Virus record (IMG/VR): IMGVR_UViG_3300031234_000027
Coordinates: 1 to 31,133 of that record
Origin: a virus
Length of the DNA: 31,133 nucleotides
Reading direction: 5' to 3' (one strand)
The translations under genes were made by a program, and so were the position numbers. This document shows positions 8,961-27,313 of this stretch, one piece after another. The notes under the pieces are model-generated. The model did no database searches. It was not told the DNA's origin and saw nothing but the letters and a program-made list of their open reading frames with translations. The first letter of the stretch is position 1; each line of letters opens with the position of its first letter.

Positions 8961-11708
8961 TCAGATGGTTTGAATTCCGCGTGTCTCATACACGCTGACC
9001 TCGGGCCGGACCGCTCTGCTGGCTCCCATGATGGCTGCCACAATCGCATCGATCCGCTTGCTCGACTTGCCCCGATCCGGTTTACTTGGCCTCACGTTAT
9101 CGTTGAACCGAACCAGCGTCAGGCAGTCCGCGCACCACCGAAGCAGCGGGTGGCCGCCGTGAATGATCGTGCCCGCCGCGATCTGATCCAGAAACTGTTT
9201 CGTCGGCTGACTCATCTGCGCGTACGTCTGCGGGACCTCAATGCAGGTGAAACCGTCTTTGATCAGCGAGCTCGCCACGCCCTTGTCGTTCCAGGGATCG
9301 AAGACCACTTCGCGCAGGTTGAACATGCGCGAGGCCCAGCGGATCCGCTCGGCGATCAGGTCGTAATCGATCAGGTTCCCCTCGACGACCTCGAGGAATC
9401 CGCCGTCGACCAGCCGGCGCAGGTGATCCAGTTGCCGGAGCGCCTTCTCTGTCGTCCAGCAAAACGGCACGATTTCCAGCTTTCCGTCGTCGGTCGGGAA
9501 CACCAGCACCACTGCCGTGAGATCCGTCGACGCCGAAAGGTCGACGCCGATCCAGCACTCGCGCTCGATGAAGCGGTCGGTGAATTCCTTCGACAGCCCA
9601 TAATCCCCGCCGACCCAGCCTTCCGCTTCCCACGGTTTCGGGCAGGCGTCCCACTGCGCCAGGTCGATAGCTCGCGTTTCATTCTGAACCCAGACATTAA
9701 GGTTCAGCCGGAGGTAATCGGTCTGCTCCGCTGGGACCGCGATGGCCTTATTCAGCTCCTCGACAATCGCTTCGTCCCGGAGGAAGCCGCCCAGGTCCTC
9801 GTGGCTCGGATTCGCCGCGACTCTGGCTTCTCGCGATTTCCAATACTCCGGCTCGATCTGGACCTTCGATGAATCCGCTTCCCAGATCGCCGCGTAGAAG
9901 CGCTTCGACTCCACCGTTCCGGCGAGGACCTGCTTGGCGAACTCGTACTCGCGATGGCAAATCTGCGAGCTGTAGATCTCGCCCGCCGTCGTGATCTGCG
10001 CCACGTGCGGCTCTGCCCTCGACAGCGTTCCCTTGGTGATGACCTTGTACAGCGTGTCCGCCGCCAGCGTGCGCCACCTGTGCAGCTCGTCGATCAGACC
10101 GAGGCTCGGCTCGATCCCGTCGTTCACCCCGCCGTCCGCGGAGAGCACCGCATAGAAACCGGCCTTGTCCTTGCGGACGATCCGCTTGGTGGAATCGAGA
10201 ACGGTCAGTCGCTCCCGGAGCGTCGGATTCGCGCGGACTAATCGAGCTGCTGCTGAGAAAACAAGTCCGGCCTGATCTCGGGCGGCCGCCGCGCCGTATG
10301 CTTCCGGCCGGTCCACCCCTTCCGAGGTGATGTGATAGAGCGGCATGCCGGCGATGAAAAACGAGTTGTGCGTCGGGATCATCGATTCTCCCGCCAGGAA
10401 TAGGTGGGATGGGGAATCGACTTGGATGCACCGCACTGGCTCGCTCGGTACGGACTCGACTGATACGATATGCCGCGTCGTGCTCCTGAGCTTCTTCGCG
10501 CCCGCCGCTTTCTTCAACCGGGCGCATTTGCGGCGCAGCCGGAAGCAAGGCGCATCGGCCCGACTCCAAAACTGGATCCGCCACTTGGGACCGATGACGC
10601 GCCCGTATAATTTTGCTTCACCGCGCTTCGTGGTCGGCTTAAGGCCGAGCGAACGAATCAGTTCCGCCGCCTGCTTTGCCAGCGCCTCACTCGTGGTCGT
10701 AAATTCGCACTGGCCCCCCTTGGTCGCGTAACCATCGGTGTCCATCAGGCCCTGTAAAAGGGCCATGCGCTGATGGATGGATGCTCTGAGGTACACCGCC
10801 GGGATGTGCTTGTTGTTCAGCAGCTCCAGCCGACCGAGCAAGGCCTGGAACGAAGATCCGTCCCGCGTATTTTTCAGGCCGGTGTCCGGAATCGCGCTCT
10901 TTCCGAGCCTGTAGCTATGCGCGCTCTTGGCGAAGCCGCCGGACTTGAAGCGGTCGCAGGTGATTCCTTCTTTTTCGATCTGGCTGATGATTTCCAAATC
11001 GTCGGGATGAACGGTGATGGTCGCAATTGACGAAGTCCCGTCGCCGAGCCACGCCCCGAGGACATAGGGCGGAACGGGGAGCGCCGCGTCCGGGAGCGCC
11101 AACGCCCCGCATACCCGGATGGAATGATTACTGCCCGAGCTGCCAGGGCTTTCTATTCGAATAGAATCCGCAATCTCCTGCGTAGTCCTGATCCGAACGC
11201 ACGGCTGGCGCTTCGCTCCTACCCTAAAGGATGGGAGCCTGCTCATTGTCAGCCATTCATGCTCAGCGTCGGCCACAATTTCGCAGCCATCGGAGAACTT
11301 CACCCGGAAGCAGGGACGCCCGACCATCGTCTCGGTTATGCCGACCACCGTACAGGGAATACCGCGCTCATCAAAGACGCGAGCACCGGAGCGGATGCCG
11401 CCAATAGTCTGCCAACCGTCCGGCGTCGGGATCGGAGTTTCGAGGCCGAGCGCCTTCCCGTTTTTCTTCGCCATCGACAGGTAAGATCGCCGATAGCGCC
11501 GTTGCCCGGTGTCTATATCGCAGGCGCCGTACAGGTCCCGCAAGACCTTTTCCTGCCACGGAAGAACGGTGAAGTCGATGTGCTTGTAGAGCCAGCGAAA
11601 GAACGCGACTGCCTTGCATCCGCCGCACTGGGGCTTCCCGTCCCCCCGGATCTCGCACCAGGTTGCGGACGAACACCAGGCGCATATTTCAAGCGTTCGT
11701 CTCGGCAT
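8961..11708 (-). CDS. terL: Terminase large subunit precursor with in-frame intein
   Basis: The 915-aa precursor encodes a packaging motor of 552 aa after removal of residues 86-448. The N-terminal part has Cys pairs (CAWC, CGGC) that may bind zinc. The Walker A motif is split: MAKKNGK lies before the intein and SFFIAGMPLYH after it, so the joined P-loop is KKNGKSFF. Walker B is LGLIDELHRW. The nuclease domain has WIGVDLSASTDLTAVVLVFP and VVFDPWNDKG. It is of the HK97/P27-associated Terminase_1 type and acts with the small subunit on concatemeric DNA at the portal. Because the intein interrupts the ATP site, the enzyme should be inactive until spliced. Confidence 0.93.
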   Translation of the reverse strand: MPRRTLEICAWCSSATWCEIRGDGKPQCGGCKAVAFFRWLYKHIDFTVLPWQEKVLRDLYGACDIDTGQRRYRRSYLSMAKKNGKALGLETPIPTPDGWQTIGGIRSGARVFDERGIPCTVVGITETMVGRPCFRVKFSDGCEIVADAEHEWLTMSRLPSFRVGAKRQPCVRIRTTQEIADSIRIESPGSSGSNHSIRVCGALALPDAALPVPPYVLGAWLGDGTSSIATITVHPDDLEIISQIEKEGITCDRFKSGGFAKSAHSYRLGKSAIPDTGLKNTRDGSSFQALLGRLELLNNKHIPAVYLRASIHQRMALLQGLMDTDGYATKGGQCEFTTTSEALAKQAAELIRSLGLKPTTKRGEAKLYGRVIGPKWRIQFWSRADAPCFRLRRKCARLKKAAGAKKLRSTTRHIVSVESVPSEPVRCIQVDSPSHLFLAGESMIPTHNSFFIAGMPLYHITSEGVDRPEAYGAAAARDQAGLVFSAAARLVRANPTLRERLTVLDSTKRIVRKDKAGFYAVLSADGGVNDGIEPSLGLIDELHRWRTLAADTLYKVITKGTLSRAEPHVAQITTAGEIYSSQICHREYEFAKQVLAGTVESKRFYAAIWEADSSKVQIEPEYWKSREARVAANPSHEDLGGFLRDEAIVEELNKAIAVPAEQTDYLRLNLNVWVQNETRAIDLAQWDACPKPWEAEGWVGGDYGLSKEFTDRFIERECWIGVDLSASTDLTAVVLVFPTDDGKLEIVPFCWTTEKALRQLDHLRRLVDGGFLEVVEGNLIDYDLIAERIRWASRMFNLREVVFDPWNDKGVASSLIKDGFTCIEVPQTYAQMSQPTKQFLDQIAAGTIIHGGHPLLRWCADCLTLVRFNDNVRPSKPDRGKSSKRIDAIVAAIMGASRAVRPEVSVYETRGIQTI
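10365..11453 (-). other. Class 3 intein with LAGLIDADG homing endonuclease
   Basis: The 363-aa intein lies between Lys85 and Ser449 of the terminase precursor. It starts with Ala (ALGLETPIPTPDGW) in place of Cys or Ser and ends MIPTHN, followed by Ser+1. It shows the non-contiguous W-C-T set known for class 3 inteins: block B AEHEWLT (His150, Trp152), block F VRCIQVDS (Cys427) and block G Thr446 before His447-Asn448. In the class 3 mechanism the block F Cys makes the first attack, replacing residue 1. The endonuclease has YVLGAWLGDGT (about 215-225) and ALLQGLMDTDGY (about 316-327), the two LAGLIDADG-like motifs. Junction bases were checked codon by codon. Confidence 0.9.
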
Positions 11709-19840: not shown

Positions 19841-20415
19841 AGTATCGCTCTCCTGTTGTGTGTACCTCTAGTGTGACAGGTGCGGGCGGTGGCGTTCACA
19901 AGTGAAATCGTGGCGACTGGCGTTCCAATCGTCAGATCGCTGCTGATCGTGATCGCCGATATCACCGCATTGCGAACCGAGGCTGTGAAGGTCAGGTTCA
20001 AGGTCGTGCCCGGGATCGCGAGGAAGGCCGCACGTGAGGTTGGCGTCATCGCTCCATTCTCCGCGTAGAGATCCAGATTCTGAATGATCGGCTGATCGTT
20101 TGCTGTCACCGAGAATACGCGCTGGCCTGGCGCTGCGATCCAGCCGCCGCAGCTCGCCGGCGTGCAGGGTTCAAGGAAGGAGAGCGTCACCGTATACAGC
20201 CCTGGTGAGCTGACTGTCAGGTGATAAGTGAACTGCGTTCCGTACCGCATGGTCCCTACATTTGGTGAGACCGGTGTGTAGTTCGGCACGGTGTACGCGG
20301 TTGTCGAGATCCCTGGCGGGCTTGAGAATAATCCCGTATCACTTGGGCTTCCCGGATAGATGGTTATGGGCTGCCCTAATAAGGGGAGTGTGATCAGTAG
20401 CGCGAGTGCTTTCAT
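19837..20415 (-). CDS. Secreted malectin-like domain protein, 192 aa
   Basis: MKALALLITLPLLGQP is a likely signal peptide. The body has a malectin/carbohydrate-binding beta-sandwich pattern: YTVTLSFLEPC, GQRVFSVTANDQPIIQNLDL, TTLNLTFTASVRNAVISAIT. Malectin domains bind sugars; in a phage this could be a virion-associated adhesin, a lysogenic-conversion product or a host-derived gene. The ATG overlaps the stop of the interrupted gene upstream. The Pro/Ser/Thr-rich N-terminal part resembles acidobacterial secreted proteins, a weak hint at host. Confidence 0.7.
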   Translation of the reverse strand: MKALALLITLPLLGQPITIYPGSPSDTGLFSSPPGISTTAYTVPNYTPVSPNVGTMRYGTQFTYHLTVSSPGLYTVTLSFLEPCTPASCGGWIAAPGQRVFSVTANDQPIIQNLDLYAENGAMTPTSRAAFLAIPGTTLNLTFTASVRNAVISAITISSDLTIGTPVATISLVNATARTCHTRGTHNRRAIL

Positions 20416-20639
20416 TGTTTGGCCTCATCTGGAGCGCCCGTTTCGGCTGTTGCGGGGGCGGCTGGTGTTGAGTTACGCCACTCGGTTCCTATCGTCAGTT
20501 CGATCTGAACCAAGGCTTTCTGGAAGGCGTCTTCGTAATCGCGGCCGATGCCACTCGCGGACGAAACTAAATTCCCTTTGTGTTTGCAGCGTATGTCGCA
20601 CTGAACCTTTTCTGTGCGCGAAATCGAATACGGAAGGCC

Positions 20640-20647
20640 AAAACTAG
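20640..20647. repeat. Target duplication, left of cassette 1
   Basis: AAAACTAG directly abuts the outer GGG of the left inverted repeat. The same 8 bp in the same orientation is at 21934-21941. Confidence 0.9.
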
Positions 20648-20672
20648 GGGAATTATATACATGACTACAGTG
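20648..20672. repeat. Left inverted repeat of cassette 1
   Basis: Twenty-five bp starting GGGAATTATATACATGACTA, perfect inverse of 21909-21933. It includes the TAG stop of the methyltransferase (20665-20667). Confidence 0.95.
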
Positions 20673-21897
20673 CTCCATTGGTTACCTCAAGATACGCCTC
20701 TATGAATCCTTTGGCCGCTTGCGCGACGATGCCATCGCCGTAACCCCGCAGTCGTCCCACACGTGCGGCAGCCCCATGAGCCAGCGGGAATGCGCCGCGT
20801 TCAACTGGCCTGAGGCCGGGACGATCTCCCACCCGTTGGGGCCGAGTAAGTACCCAATTGGCGTCTCGCCAAAAGCCGTTAACCGGACCTGGCCTTGCAG
20901 ATTCAGAATCTTCTCTGTCCCGCTGTTCTGATAGTCCCCACTCGCCACCTTCGGCGTTGCCCAACTTGCCAACCTCGCATCCAGCGTTAGTGATTCGTTC
21001 GCCGGTCCCTGCCCGCTCCGTTCCGTTGACGTGGGAGTCGTCCAGCCGCTCAACTTCGCTTCGTTCTCCAATCCGATTTGAGCTTTCGTCCCGTCCTGAT
21101 GCTTCCCGATGTCCGTCTGGTTCCCGCTGATCCGGTCGCCGTTTGGAACGCACGGCGTTTTCCAGCCGGACAGTTGCGCCATCACCTGAAGACTGGTAAT
21201 TGCCGTCCGGTTCGCACCCGTCCCGTCTCGCTCGCCCATTCTCGTTTTCATCGCTAAGTGAGCTTCTGGTGTCTTGTTGTCGTCGTTCGCAACCGGCGTT
21301 GGCCATGCGGCCAATACCGCCATATTGCTCAGGTCGTGGGGAAAGTAATGGTGATCCGCCATCGTGTTGCCCCGCTCCCGTTCGTCGTGCTTCTGCGGAG
21401 TCGGCCACCCAATAAAGACGCTGCCTTCGGTGAGGGGCTCCGAAGCCCGCAGCGCAGAGATCGACTGCCCCGCAGGTGTAACCCGCACGGTCCAGGTCAG
21501 ATTGAACAAGGTCGAGCCAAGTGAGTCCGTCAATGGACGCAACTTGCTCGCCAAAGCAAACGATAGGTCGTCGTGCTTCGATGAGTGGAAACCAGACTGG
21601 CCAAAGATGCCTTTCGTCGTCGAACGCTTCGCCTTTGCCGGCCGCGCTGAAGGGTTGGCAGGGACAGGAGCCAGTCCAGACTTCGCGGTCGTCTGGCCAT
21701 CCGGCGAGCCGGAGCGCGTAGGACCAGATGCCGATCCCGGCGAAGAAGTGGCACTGGTTATATCCTCGGAGGTCATCGGCTCGAACATCGGCAATTGATC
21801 GCTCATCCACAACTCCCGGCGCGATCACTCCACGCAAAATCAACTCCCGCAGCCACGCGGCCTTTTTCGGATCGATCTCGTTGTACCATGCGCTCAC
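20665..21897 (-). CDS. C5-cytosine DNA methyltransferase 1, 410 aa
   Basis: Dcm-type motifs appear in order: motif I FFAGIGIWSYALRLAG (about 51-66), motif IV GSCPCQPFS with the nucleophile Cys80, motif VI CFGEQVASIDG, motif VIII GAPHRRQRLYWVA (about 153-165), and motifs IX-X GRLRGYGDGIVAQAAKGFIE near the C-terminus. Between VIII and IX, in the target-recognition position, is a charged low-complexity stretch with repeated boxes (RMANAGCERR, RLENAVRSKRR, RLDDSHVNG, RITNAGCEVGKLGNAE). It starts at GTG directly after the TAG that ends the upstream interrupted frame, so it is probably translated by coupling. It likely protects phage DNA from host restriction. It fills the mobile cassette. Confidence 0.9.
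   Translation of the reverse strand: MSAWYNEIDPKKAAWLRELILRGVIAPGVVDERSIADVRADDLRGYNQCHFFAGIGIWSYALRLAGWPDDREVWTGSCPCQPFSAAGKGEAFDDERHLWPVWFPLIEARRPIVCFGEQVASIDGLTWLDLVQSDLDRAGYTCGAVDLCAAGFGAPHRRQRLYWVADSAEARRTGAGQHDGGSPLLSPRPEQYGGIGRMANAGCERRQQDTRSSLSDENENGRARRDGCEPDGNYQSSGDGATVRLENAVRSKRRPDQREPDGHREASGRDESSNRIGERSEVERLDDSHVNGTERAGTGERITNAGCEVGKLGNAEGGEWGLSEQRDREDSESARPGPVNGFWRDANWVLTRPQRVGDRPGLRPVERGAFPLAHGAAARVGRLRGYGDGIVAQAAKGFIEAYLEVTNGAL
20700..21806 (-). CDS. Nested +1-frame ORF inside methyltransferase 1 (dual coding)
   Basis: A 368-codon frame from ATG 21806 (MSDQLPMFEPMTSEDITSAT) to 20700 lies wholly inside the methyltransferase gene. It encodes LGSTLFNLTWTVRVTPAGQS, then ALRASEPLTEG, then five W-x-T-P boxes (WPTP twice, WKTP, WTTP, WATP) spaced about 27-47 residues, and ends LNAAHSRWLMGLPHVWDDCG plus VTAMASSRKRPKDS. 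From memory, phage proteins with the same LTWK..TP, RAS, WPTP and LNP.HSRWLMGLP pattern exist as annotated entries, so this is not a random shadow. Each WPTP box is the +1 reading of the Leu/Met-x-Asn-Ala-type boxes in the methyltransferase frame. The function is unknown. Confidence 0.65.
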   Translation of the reverse strand: MSDQLPMFEPMTSEDITSATSSPGSASGPTRSGSPDGQTTAKSGLAPVPANPSARPAKAKRSTTKGIFGQSGFHSSKHDDLSFALASKLRPLTDSLGSTLFNLTWTVRVTPAGQSISALRASEPLTEGSVFIGWPTPQKHDERERGNTMADHHYFPHDLSNMAVLAAWPTPVANDDNKTPEAHLAMKTRMGERDGTGANRTAITSLQVMAQLSGWKTPCVPNGDRISGNQTDIGKHQDGTKAQIGLENEAKLSGWTTPTSTERSGQGPANESLTLDARLASWATPKVASGDYQNSGTEKILNLQGQVRLTAFGETPIGYLLGPNGWEIVPASGQLNAAHSRWLMGLPHVWDDCGVTAMASSRKRPKDS

Positions 21898-21908
21898 CTA
21901 GTACTCGC

Positions 21909-21933
21909 CACTGTAGTCATGTATATAATTCCC
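21909..21933. repeat. Right inverted repeat of cassette 1
   Basis: Perfect inverse copy of 20648-20672. It encodes the last residues of the truncated upstream frame before the methyltransferase start. Confidence 0.95.
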
Positions 21934-21941
21934 AAAACTAG
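21934..21941. repeat. Target duplication, right of cassette 1
   Basis: AAAACTAG, identical and in the same orientation to 20640-20647. Confidence 0.9.
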
Positions 21942-22105
21942 CACGTGGTTCGGTTTGAAGATTCAGCCAGTCACGTAACGTCACCGGTCCTGCGCTCGCA
22001 GCCCTCAATTTTTCAGCGCGCCGCCGGGTAATCAGCATATCCACAACCGCCGCGATCATCGCGCCGGCGACGATTCCAGCCGCTATAGAATTTAAGCCTC
22101 GGGGA

Positions 22106-22125: not shown

Positions 22126-22208
22126 CGGAAGAGGCTTTCCGTACCCCAGTACGGACTGCCTTTTTTTGAACCTTGTAGTAAGTGTCTGTAAGGCGCATAC
22201 TCGGGCTG

Positions 22209-22607
22209 ATGAGTGAGCGATACGCCAAAAATGCCGGGGCGGTATTCAGCCTGAAATACCACGTTGTGTGGTGTCCCAAGTACCGCCGTTCCGTTCTGGT
22301 CAAGCCGGTCGACGCGCGATTGAAGGTGCTGTTGCGTCAGAAAGCCGCCGAATTGAACCTGACGATTCACGTGATGGAGGTTATGCCCGATCACGTCCAC
22401 CTTTTTGTGGAGGGCGCGCCGACGATCTGCGTAGCCGAGATCGTCAACGGGCTGAAGGGCTTCACATCGCATGAATTGCGGGAGGAGTTCCCGTTTCTCA
22501 AGTCGCGGCTGCCTACCCTTTGGAGCAGGAGTTACTACGCTGGTTCGGTTGGCTCCGTCAGTGAAGTCGTCGTTCGAAAGTACATCGAAGATCAGAAGGG
22601 GAAGTAG
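22209..22607 (+). CDS. tnpA: TnpA, HUH (Y1) transposase
   Basis: A 132-aa IS200/IS605 single-strand transposase. It has KYHVVWCPKYRRSVL, the HUH pair in MPDHVHLFVE (His62, His64) and the nucleophile Tyr in VVRKYIEDQ (Tyr125). It cuts and rejoins single-stranded IS ends recognised through the hairpins. I chose MSERYAKNAG as start; a GTG nine codons earlier is possible. The stop is immediately followed by the tnpB ATG. All key residues are present, so it could be active. Confidence 0.92.
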   Translation: MSERYAKNAGAVFSLKYHVVWCPKYRRSVLVKPVDARLKVLLRQKAAELNLTIHVMEVMPDHVHLFVEGAPTICVAEIVNGLKGFTSHELREEFPFLKSRLPTLWSRSYYAGSVGSVSEVVVRKYIEDQKGK

Positions 22608-23732
22608 ATGCGCTTCGCCTTCAAATACCGCCTGTATCCCACGGCTGCGCAGGCCGTGTTTCTCGATGGCGAGCTGCGCGATGCCTGCTCTCTCTACAAC
22701 GCAGCTAAGCAGGAACGGGACGACGCCTGGAAGACTTGCCGCAAGTCGATCAACTACTACGATCAGGCAAACCAATTGAAAGCGATGCGCGCCGATGGAT
22801 GCCTCACGCTGGCAAACTTCTCCTGTTGCCAAGACGTGCTGCGCCGCGTGGACAAGACGTACAAGGCTTTCTATGCCCGCGTGAAGCGCGGAGAGAAGCC
22901 GGGCTTCCCGCGCTACCGTTCTTTCCGGCGCTACGACAGCATCACCTTCCCGTCCTACGGCGACGGCTGCCGGTTGCTCGATTCCGGCAAGCTTCGCGTC
23001 CAGGGCGCCGGGCACATCAAGGTTAAGCTTCATCGCCCGGTTGAAGGCGATATCAAGACGGTCACGATCAAGCGGGAAGCTGGCCGCTGGTTCGTGTGCT
23101 TCAGCATCGAGCGCGCCGCCGCACCGCTGCCGGTGAGTTCCACCGAAATCGGAATCGATGTCGGATTGACCAGCTTCGCGGTCCTCTCCGATGGCTCCGA
23201 GATCGAGAATCCCCGGCGTTACCGGAAGGCTCAAGCCAAGCTGCGCTGCGCACAGCGAAAGGTAGCGCGGCGCAAGAAGGGCGGCAACCGGCGCCGGAAG
23301 GCTGTTCGATTGCTCCAGCGCGCTCATGCACACGTCGGTAACCAGCGCAGGGACTTCCAGCACAAGGAATCCCGCAAGCTGGTGAACAGGTACGGTCTGA
23401 TTGCCGTGGAAGATTTGAACGTGAAAGGGCTCGCCGGAGGAATGCTGGCGAAGTCCGTTCACGATGCGGGATGGGCGGCTTTTCTGAATATGATCTCGTA
23501 CAAAGCGGAAGATGCTGGTCGAGATTACCGAAAAGTCGATGCACGAGGAACGTCGCAAGAATGTCTCTGTGGGGCGCGAGTGCCCAAGACCCTTGCGGAT
23601 CGTTGGCACTTTTGCCCGGCTTGCGGATTGTCTGCTAGTCGCGATCATGTTTCTGCTCAACTGATACTCAAACGGGCCTGGATCGGGCCTTCAAGCGCTA
23701 ACGTAGAGGTTGTAGTCTCATGCGTTGCTTGA
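22608..23732 (+). CDS. tnpB: TnpB, RNA-guided RuvC-like nuclease
   Basis: A 374-aa TnpB starting MRFAFKYRLYPTAAQAVFLD. The RuvC triad is visible: Asp184 in EIGIDVGLTSFAV, Glu268 in IAVEDLNVKGL and Asp346 in SRDHVSAQ. The zinc-ribbon segment TSQECLCGARVPKTL ... FCPACGLSAS has CxC in the first knuckle in place of the usual CxxC. TnpB proteins use an RNA from the IS right end to cut the empty donor site and promote retention of the IS. The length is normal and the frame intact. The gene ends 4 nt before the right-end hairpin. Confidence 0.92.
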   Translation: MRFAFKYRLYPTAAQAVFLDGELRDACSLYNAAKQERDDAWKTCRKSINYYDQANQLKAMRADGCLTLANFSCCQDVLRRVDKTYKAFYARVKRGEKPGFPRYRSFRRYDSITFPSYGDGCRLLDSGKLRVQGAGHIKVKLHRPVEGDIKTVTIKREAGRWFVCFSIERAAAPLPVSSTEIGIDVGLTSFAVLSDGSEIENPRRYRKAQAKLRCAQRKVARRKKGGNRRRKAVRLLQRAHAHVGNQRRDFQHKESRKLVNRYGLIAVEDLNVKGLAGGMLAKSVHDAGWAAFLNMISYKAEDAGRDYRKVDARGTSQECLCGARVPKTLADRWHFCPACGLSASRDHVSAQLILKRAWIGPSSANVEVVVSCVA

Positions 23733-26034: not shown

Positions 26035-26052
26035 TCAGCTCACCGCCTCACT

Positions 26053-26060
26053 AATCCTTT
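26053..26060. repeat. Target duplication, left of cassette 2
   Basis: AATCCTTT, adjacent to the outer GGGA of the left inverted repeat, identical and same orientation to 26724-26731. Confidence 0.9.
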
Positions 26061-26084
26061 GGGATTTATATACATAAGTCCCTT
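26061..26084. repeat. Left inverted repeat of cassette 2
   Basis: Starts GGGATTTATATACATAAGTC. It contains the TAA stop of the methyltransferase at 26066-26068. Confidence 0.85.
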
Positions 26085-26710
26085 ATCTGTTTACCGATGA
26101 ACTTTGAGTACGCCGGAGGGATGGCTTGAGAGAGTTCGTTGCCAGTCATCCAGTCGATGCCCATGGCTTCCGGCCCGACATACGAGCCGATGTCCCCTAC
26201 GACCGTCACGAACCCGCCAGCGTCCCAATGCCCGCGCCGGTTCTTCTTTCTTCGGTTTACGGGCGTAATATGCTTGGGATGTTCCATGCCTTTTAGTGGG
26301 CGATTCGATTCAAAGATTCGATGGCGATAGCTGCGAAGGCCAAACGCTGCGGCGCAAAGCATCAGGTCCCGCCTCAGCGGAGCACCCACCACGTTTTCAA
26401 TCACGAACGGCACGCCGGAAGCCTCCAGGCGCGCTCTGACGGGCGCTACCAAGTCTTCGTACTTCGAGCTATCGAAAACGCTCCGCAGGCACGTAAACCG
26501 CTGGCAAGGCGGACTCGCCCAGATGAAATCGAATCCTTCCAGCGGGAAAGTCATGGCGTCCGCTAAGTGGAAGACATGGCCCACATAGCGCGGCTGTGCC
26601 TTGATGTCCACACCCGTGACGTGGAAGCCAGCGAGACGCAATCCCTTCGTCGCACCGCCCGCGCCGCAAAAAAGGTCCAAAGCCTTCGGTTTCTTACGCA
26701 AGGGACTCAT
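26066..26710 (-). CDS. C5-cytosine DNA methyltransferase 2, 214 aa
   Basis: A compact Dcm-type enzyme: motif I ALDLFCGAGGATKGLRLAG, motif IV WASPPCQRFT, motif VI FVIENVVGAPL, motif VIII-like SYRHRIFES and a C-terminal PPAYSKFIGKQI. At 214 aa it has only a minimal target-recognition part, like other short phage C5 methyltransferases. It shares little sequence with methyltransferase 1 beyond the catalytic motifs. Its ATG overlaps the truncated upstream frame (GNYIDESLA), so translation is probably coupled to the interrupted gene. Confidence 0.9.
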   Translation of the reverse strand: MSPLRKKPKALDLFCGAGGATKGLRLAGFHVTGVDIKAQPRYVGHVFHLADAMTFPLEGFDFIWASPPCQRFTCLRSVFDSSKYEDLVAPVRARLEASGVPFVIENVVGAPLRRDLMLCAAAFGLRSYRHRIFESNRPLKGMEHPKHITPVNRRKKNRRGHWDAGGFVTVVGDIGSYVGPEAMGIDWMTGNELSQAIPPAYSKFIGKQIRDLCI

Positions 26711-26723
26711 CTATATAATTCCC
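26700..26723. repeat. Right inverted repeat of cassette 2
   Basis: Reads GGGAATTATATAGATGAGTC inward on the minus strand. It contains the methyltransferase start codon. Confidence 0.85.
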
Positions 26724-26731
26724 AATCCTTT
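26724..26731. repeat. Target duplication, right of cassette 2
   Basis: AATCCTTT, identical to 26053-26060. Confidence 0.9.
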
Positions 26732-26781
26732 TACGTTCGTTACGACTGACCCGCACACTCCGTTCTGCTGTGAGGGCTGCC

Positions 26782-26818
26782 GCTGTTGGCCTCGGCTTCG
26801 TGCTGCCTACTGAATCGC
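26782..26818. repeat. Dispersed 37-nt repeat, copy C
   Basis: Contains GGCTTCGTGCTGCCTACTGA, matching copies A and B. On the minus strand it encodes DSVGSTKPRPTA. Confidence 0.6.
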
Positions 26819-26908
26819 GCGGCGCCCGGCCGGCCAGGCGCATCATTGCTTCGTGGCGCGAGCAGGGCGCTTCGCTGAATAGATCGACCAGTAGCTCGAC
26901 CAGGCGCA

Positions 26909-27313
26909 TCATTCGCAGCCGCCTTGACGGTCGAATATGTGCCACGCTACCCAGCCGCTCGGGCAGATGAAACCCCATTCACGGCGCCGGCGGAATCGGA
27001 GCACGAGCGTCCACGCTGGCCGGGCAAGTTCGAGACGATGCTGCCATTCCGCGGGACGAATCAGCACCGATCCGGGACGATGACGCCGCGGCCCTTGTGG
27101 TGTGTGCTCGATGTATCCCGCCGTCAGAATGATCGAAATGAAGCTCCACGGGTGATCATGCAGGGCGCGGTCCTCGTCGCTTCGACAGAGCCGGTGCAGG
27201 TACACCGCGAACCGGTCGGCGCGGAAGAGAAAGTACCGGATCAGCAGCGGACCGGCCGGGACATCCCACCCGATTACGCGATGCGGAAATCGATTTGCGA
27301 TCGCCTGTATCAT
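26909..27313 (-). CDS. Cupin-fold phage protein, 134 aa
   Basis: The ATG at 27313 overlaps the preceding stop. The protein has the conserved phage cupin pattern: FLFRADRFAVYLHRLCRSDE, RALHDHPWSFISIILTAGYI, RRHRPGSVLIRPAEWQHRLE, then AWTLVLRFRRRREWGF. The HDHPW metal-binding histidines are present. Cupins of this type occur in many phages without known substrate. Frames extending upstream overlap the preceding gene and are not believed. Confidence 0.8.
   Translation of the reverse strand: MIQAIANRFPHRVIGWDVPAGPLLIRYFLFRADRFAVYLHRLCRSDEDRALHDHPWSFISIILTAGYIEHTPQGPRRHRPGSVLIRPAEWQHRLELARPAWTLVLRFRRRREWGFICPSGWVAWHIFDRQGGCE

Follow-up and report, generated by a model that had tools for sequence, protein, structure and literature searches.

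Two C5-methyltransferase genes of a viral contig are very probably carried by mobile insertion cassettes of an IS1595-type family

The window analysed here, the whole of IMG/VR virus record IMGVR_UViG_3300031234_000027 (31,133 nucleotides), contains two compact cassettes. Each carries a C5-cytosine DNA methyltransferase (MTase) gene, has terminal inverted repeats (TIRs), is bordered by a perfect 8-bp target site duplication (TSD) and interrupts a reading frame, called gene X for cassette 1 and gene Y for cassette 2. Their features are, in window coordinates:

20412–20647, minus strand: gene X, 3' part, joining in frame with 21942–22059
20640–20647, no strand: TSD copy 1 of cassette 1, AAAACTAG, adjoining the TIR
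20648–20672, plus strand: cassette 1 TIR, ACTACA end type (repeat search and family consensus)
20665–21897, minus strand: MTase 1, C5-cytosine DNA methyltransferase, 410 aa, the sole cargo of cassette 1
20700–21812, minus strand: 370-aa ORF in an alternative frame, almost completely overlapping with MTase 1
21909–21933, minus strand: cassette 1 TIR, gene-proximal (repeat search)
21934–21941, no strand: TSD copy 2 of cassette 1, AAAACTAG, a perfect match to copy 1
21942–22059, minus strand: gene X, 5' part (joined-frame test)
26053–26060, no strand: TSD copy 1 of cassette 2, AATCCTTT, a perfect 8-bp duplication
26061–26084, plus strand: cassette 2 TIR, AGTCCC end type
26066–26710, minus strand: MTase 2, C5-cytosine DNA methyltransferase, 214 aa
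26700–26723, minus strand: cassette 2 TIR, gene-proximal
26724–26731, no strand: TSD copy 2 of cassette 2, AATCCTTT
26732–26978, minus strand: gene Y, split five codons upstream of its stop (joined frame ...NERKRISEAVS, stop, ATG)

An initial annotation had described cassette 1 (20648–21933) as a transposon-like insertion without a transposase, with perfect 25-bp inverted repeats, a perfect 8-bp direct repeat, a frame restored on removal and a methyltransferase as its only cargo, and each of these points was borne out. The 25-mer is unique in the window to the two ends of the cassette (three or fewer mismatches) and was present in 0 of 100 shuffles, AAAACTAG borders both ends exactly, and removal of the cassette with one TSD leaves a single open frame (...TEPRASF/GLPYSIS..., joined at the slash). 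MTase 1, whose stop codon is inside the left repeat, matches Pfam DNA_methylase (3.4e-13) and phrog_363 (9.7e-74) and has a PCQ motif. The 370-aa ORF overlapping it matches phrog_1008 (3.6e-22) and phrog_31772 (2.7e-18), so this region may code in two frames. The 5' frame of gene X enters the TIR, where a TAG (21898–21900) directly precedes the GTG of MTase 1. A search for a cassette-free relative of gene X, which the initial annotation had proposed, returned only a 99.98% identical copy of this phage, which also carries the cassette; the empty site of cassette 1 is therefore still missing, and no homologue came up in which the methyltransferase is a fixed part of the gene, the finding that the annotation had named as counting against insertion. 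An IS200/IS605 pair (Y1 transposase TnpA and TnpB; 22182–23732, plus strand) lies about 240 bp from cassette 1. This pair was rejected as the mover of the cassettes, being of a different transposase type whose elements make no target duplication.

Cassette 2 (26061–26723), overlooked in the initial annotation, was recovered by an end search allowing three mismatches. Its ends, GGGATTTATATACATAAGTCCCTT and GGGAATTATATAGATGAGTCCCTT, are of the same kind as those of cassette 1, in inverted orientation. MTase 2 matches Pfam DNA_methylase (9e-5) and phrog_363 (1.1e-31) and is only distantly related to MTase 1; its start codon lies within one TIR and its stop codon within the other. The final codons and stop of gene Y are displaced to 26035–26052, adjoining the start of an HNH gene (26034), and without the cassette the gene Y stop would directly precede the HNH start codon. 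A query with the HNH neighbor for the corresponding empty site gave no useful relative. The interrupted gene Y frame crosses the TIR and meets a TAA shortly after the MTase 2 ATG; in both cassettes, an interrupted host frame that stops near the MTase start would permit translational coupling. The two MTase genes occupy 96–97% of their cassettes, neither of which contains an IS1595 transposase ORF, and no transposase with cassette-type ends was found within the 31-kb record. Elsewhere in the window are a third DNA methyltransferase of the phage (N6_N4; 12926–14314, minus strand), which has no TIRs, and a terminase large subunit (8961–11708, minus strand) with an in-frame insertion that matches LAGLIDADG and homing endonucleases and is probably an intein.

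Related ends are widespread in environmental viruses. IMG/VR was searched by end patterns only, ignoring cargo, which yielded hundreds of stretches, and an element was accepted if inverted ends were accompanied by an exact 8-bp duplication, one mismatch being allowed only with very good ends. Together with genome scans, this search, which follows a check proposed in the initial annotation, recovered at least 129 distinct elements that combine matching ends with an 8-bp duplication, in at least 321 loci (numbered L below), many of which are fragments. Across 861 end pairs, exact 8-bp duplications numbered 144 at the true offset versus 1 summed over 24 control offsets. The family consensus end is GGGAATTATATACATGACTCCC, conserved over about 22 bp, and target sites are 80% A+T with a weak palindrome. 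Across 257 Gb of genomes from bacteria and archaea, a broader end pattern gave 11 stretches, and two of its sub-patterns gave 72 stretches in IMG/VR, a raw count and not a rate. Uncultivated viruses often carry the family, bacterial genomes rarely do, and isolated phages have no close relatives of it. At least two cases from genomes (L315 and L323) adjoin ordinary-looking chromosomal genes, as judged from translations read by eye, and the clade is therefore virus-associated, not virus-exclusive. One locus (L102:477-1956) holds two adjoining cassettes at which one duplication, CTATATTG, occurs three times, as though the target duplication of one cassette had been the exact insertion site of the other.

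The initial annotation left open which enzyme moves the cassette and proposed a search for an insertion sequence (IS) with the same ends. Such elements were found, and the question now has an answer at the family level. At least 64 of the 129 elements encode a relative of one transposase (tblastn), and all 48 intact transposases match Pfam DDE_Tnp_IS1595 and Zn_ribbon_IS1595 as well as NCBIfam NF033547; the transposases of the family share an invariant acidic triad (D138, D207, E239). They form a clade whose members are at least 61% identical to the L110 transposase, whereas the best plasmid match reaches 45%, no other IS1595 copy within the same MAGs exceeds 43%, and isolated phages provided only three distant matches below 39% identity. 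Among 297 Acidobacteriota genomes there was a single close member, in an already known carrier. The ends of distant cellular IS1595 relatives were not recognizable, no solved structure of an IS1595 transposase turned up, and a Foldseek search with the transposase model yielded nothing beyond weak matches of retroviral integrase and mariner type (best E 2.6e-3). In two autonomous elements, L204 and L266, the transposase stands beside a homolog of MTase 1 (62% identical over the whole length in L204 and 66% over the N-terminal part in L266), closer than the best isolated-phage match (48%, EBPR podovirus 2); the L204 transposase is itself 96% identical to that of L110. Because half of the elements with these ends encode a transposase, and all 48 scanned are of IS1595 type, the window cassettes are very probably IS1595 mobile insertion cassettes, and their mover is very probably an IS1595-type transposase that would act in trans.

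Several known systems resemble these cassettes. Passenger genes are known in the IS1595 family, whose ISXO2-like members share with the present family the DDE_Tnp_IS1595 and zinc-ribbon domains, the 8-bp duplication and ends starting with GGG. The elements described here differ in forming a separate clade that comes mainly from virus contigs and has GGGAATTATATACATGACTCCC as its conserved end, and the window cassettes themselves lack a transposase. Miniature inverted-repeat transposable elements (MITEs) are likewise non-autonomous, with TIRs and a duplication, whereas the window cassettes are compact protein-coding genes and MITEs by definition are not coding. The Tn3 family makes a 5-bp duplication and has GGGG ends of about 38 bp, and was rejected given the 8-bp duplication and roughly 22-bp conserved ends found here. 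The published definition of a mobile insertion cassette (MIC) fits the window cassettes (PMC3913671): they have TIRs and a TSD, cargo in place of a transposase, and ends common to an autonomous IS. Known examples are mic-qnrD (PMC3913671) and MIC231 of Bacillus cereus, such cassettes being mobilized in trans by a related IS, as shown for MIC231A1 with IS231A. MIC231 and mic-qnrD likewise combine IS-like inverted repeats and a target duplication with a cargo gene replacing the transposase. The window cassettes differ in being phage-borne, in having IS1595-type ends where IS231 is of the IS4 family, and in that their relatives make up a whole class (at least 65 transposase-less elements with family ends) with mostly DNA-modification genes as cargo. 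Orphan methyltransferases are well known in phages and linked to host restriction (PMC10370329). Those of epsilon15 and EBPR podovirus 2 belong to the same C5-methyltransferase family as MTase 1, whereas MTase 1 lies inside a transposable cassette that has ends and a duplication of its own. No prior report of a phage IS1595-type clade with modification genes was found in the open-access literature and, as far as we have found, this family of virus-borne elements is previously unreported.

The two ends of an element co-vary beyond chance at positions 18, 20, 22 and 23, as expected if one transposase reads both. Position 22 tracks a residue of the zinc ribbon (YRCNxC): Arg54 is present in 46/46 transposases whose elements have C22 at one or both ends and missing from 6/7 with A22 at both ends, the exception being L135 (53 transposases; p 3e-7, uncorrected for the 309 columns). 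The tree implies about five separate origins of A22, of which at least four rest on well-supported branches (for example L266 beside L069). Outside this set, every element for which both ends are known follows the pattern (26 with Arg and C22, 1 with His and A22); where one end is known, L234 breaks the rule and L127 possibly does. Residue 54 lies in one strand of the ribbon in an AlphaFold model, and we infer from the correlation that it may contact base 22. The helper class is therefore predictable for each cassette: the predicted helper for cassette 1, which has ACA ends, is a transposase of the ACA type, for example that of L025 or L129 (His54), and for cassette 2, which has CCC ends, an Arg54-type transposase. 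L110 and L204 combine CCC ends with Arg54.

The cargo of the family is dominated by DNA modification. Of the 39 listed transposase-less elements whose main ORF reaches 130 aa or more, 24 encode a Mom protein or a DNA methyltransferase (Pfam or PHROGs), and because the search key was the ends alone, cargo was not selected for. The types are:

C5: both window cassettes, L037, L321
N4/N6: L045, L059, L072, L132, L142, L185, L194, L206, L207, L227, L242, L309
D12: L218, L220 (the latter by homology to L218)
Dam: L302
Mom: L018, L059
other PHROG methyltransferases: L172, L261, L301

One explanation is that the methyltransferases serve the transposon, by regulating transposition or transposase expression or by protecting intermediates. 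DNA modification genes are indeed also passengers in transposase-bearing elements, and certain IS elements are known to be under Dam control, but the cargo chemistries are unrelated (C5, N4/N6, D12, Dam, Mom), which a single regulatory site would hardly need and which protection against varied restriction enzymes would favor; we regard this explanation as unlikely.

Other passengers were also seen. A TnpB gene of OrfB_IS605 type is the sole passenger at L122:1097-2392 (Pfam) and L305:2001-3178 (homology to L122), and a cassette at L015:9791-10945 carries a PTPS/QueD gene with a gene of the unnamed family phrog_15826, possibly for 7-deazaguanine DNA modification. PAPS reductase-like genes (phrog_424) recur (L260, L284, L285, L315; 7/47 passengers of autonomous elements), for which a connection with sulfur-based DNA modification is no more than a guess. 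The passenger at L282:5831-6490 (phrog_24928) looks Mom-like by eye. The phage family phrog_12600 recurs as a passenger at separate sites (L094:1005-1571 and L102:482-1048), an association that hints at a possible role in DNA modification. Of the cargo ORFs, 15/65 can begin at a TIR ATG and 16/65 end in the other TIR. A conserved gene-start device in the TIR was rejected: the ATG counts were 12/31 on the cargo's 5' side versus 12/31, and since the ATG is no commoner on that side, no such role is claimed.

Some members of the family occupy more than one site. A 1561-bp transposase-bearing element occurs 99.7–99.9% identical at three sites (L070, L231, L278) with different duplications and unrelated flanks, and empty sites with one target copy were found for L086 (in L280, 94.6%, gapless) and L290 (in L208, 91%). 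Elements without a transposase do so too, and this bears on the idea that the window cassettes are dead relics of transposase deletion from L204-like elements, immobile since. Internal deletion would be an easy origin, since the autonomous L204 and L266 carry a homologous MTase. However, two transposase-less pairs, L218/L220 (91% identical) and L094/L102 (75%), share gene and length within the pair, yet the two members of each pair have their own site and duplication and unrelated flanks, and the window cassettes differ from each other in cargo and end type, each with a perfect duplication, so that they look like separate insertions. We find this idea improbable.

The cargo bias could also be a by-product, short single-gene methyltransferases being frequent phage morons of a size that the elements can accommodate. 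N4/N6 methyltransferases are a joint commonest family among control genes, but only 3/140 size-matched ORFs (130–420 aa, naive ORF calls included) outside cassettes on the same contigs were methyltransferases, all N6_N4, against 24/39 cargo genes (Fisher p 1.5e-16). Because 29 single-member control families were not listed, 7/140 was tested as well (p 9e-14); against that count the difference persists with Pfam-only matches (21/39, p 3e-11) and with cargo collapsed to homology clusters (11/24, p about 1e-6), leaving a by-product very unlikely. Nothing was found to favor reading the repeats as operators, the other possibility that the initial annotation had named as counting against insertion, or as recombination sites, flanked by chance or artefactual direct repeats, although the TIRs are AT-rich with TATAAT-like letters, and this reading can be dismissed given the duplications of at least 129 elements, their near absence at control offsets, and a second contig that agrees 99.98% with the window through the cassette 1 end.

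We consider it highly probable that both window cassettes are non-autonomous mobile insertion cassettes of the virus-associated IS1595 clade, which would be moved in trans and carry putative anti-restriction cargo. A helper IS1595-type DDE transposase would come from a co-infecting or resident phage that carries a related element, or from a rare copy in the chromosome. It would bind the roughly 22-bp ends, excise or copy the cassette and insert it into an AT-rich 8-bp target, which would then be duplicated. The cargo MTase would be read from upstream phage transcription and translation and would mark the phage DNA, protecting it from host restriction. A wider proposal, that the clade forms a gene-exchange network shared among phages, in which helpers with distinct zinc-ribbon and TIR codes mobilize modification-enriched cassettes in trans, residue 54 reading base 22, is advanced tentatively, and we judge it slightly more apt to fail than to hold.

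The patchy distribution of orphan methyltransferases in phages is usually ascribed to recombination. The present findings provide a defined vehicle for such genes, a transposon family with a recognizable end in many environmental phages, and if the proposal is true, phages swap modification types by transposition, beyond homologous recombination alone. The 22-bp end can serve as a search key for mobile anti-restriction genes, including passengers such as phrog_12600, and its relationship to residue 54 offers a testable protein–DNA code for IS1595 transposases. Given that the cargo consists mostly of DNA-marking genes, phages may trade protection from restriction by transposition.
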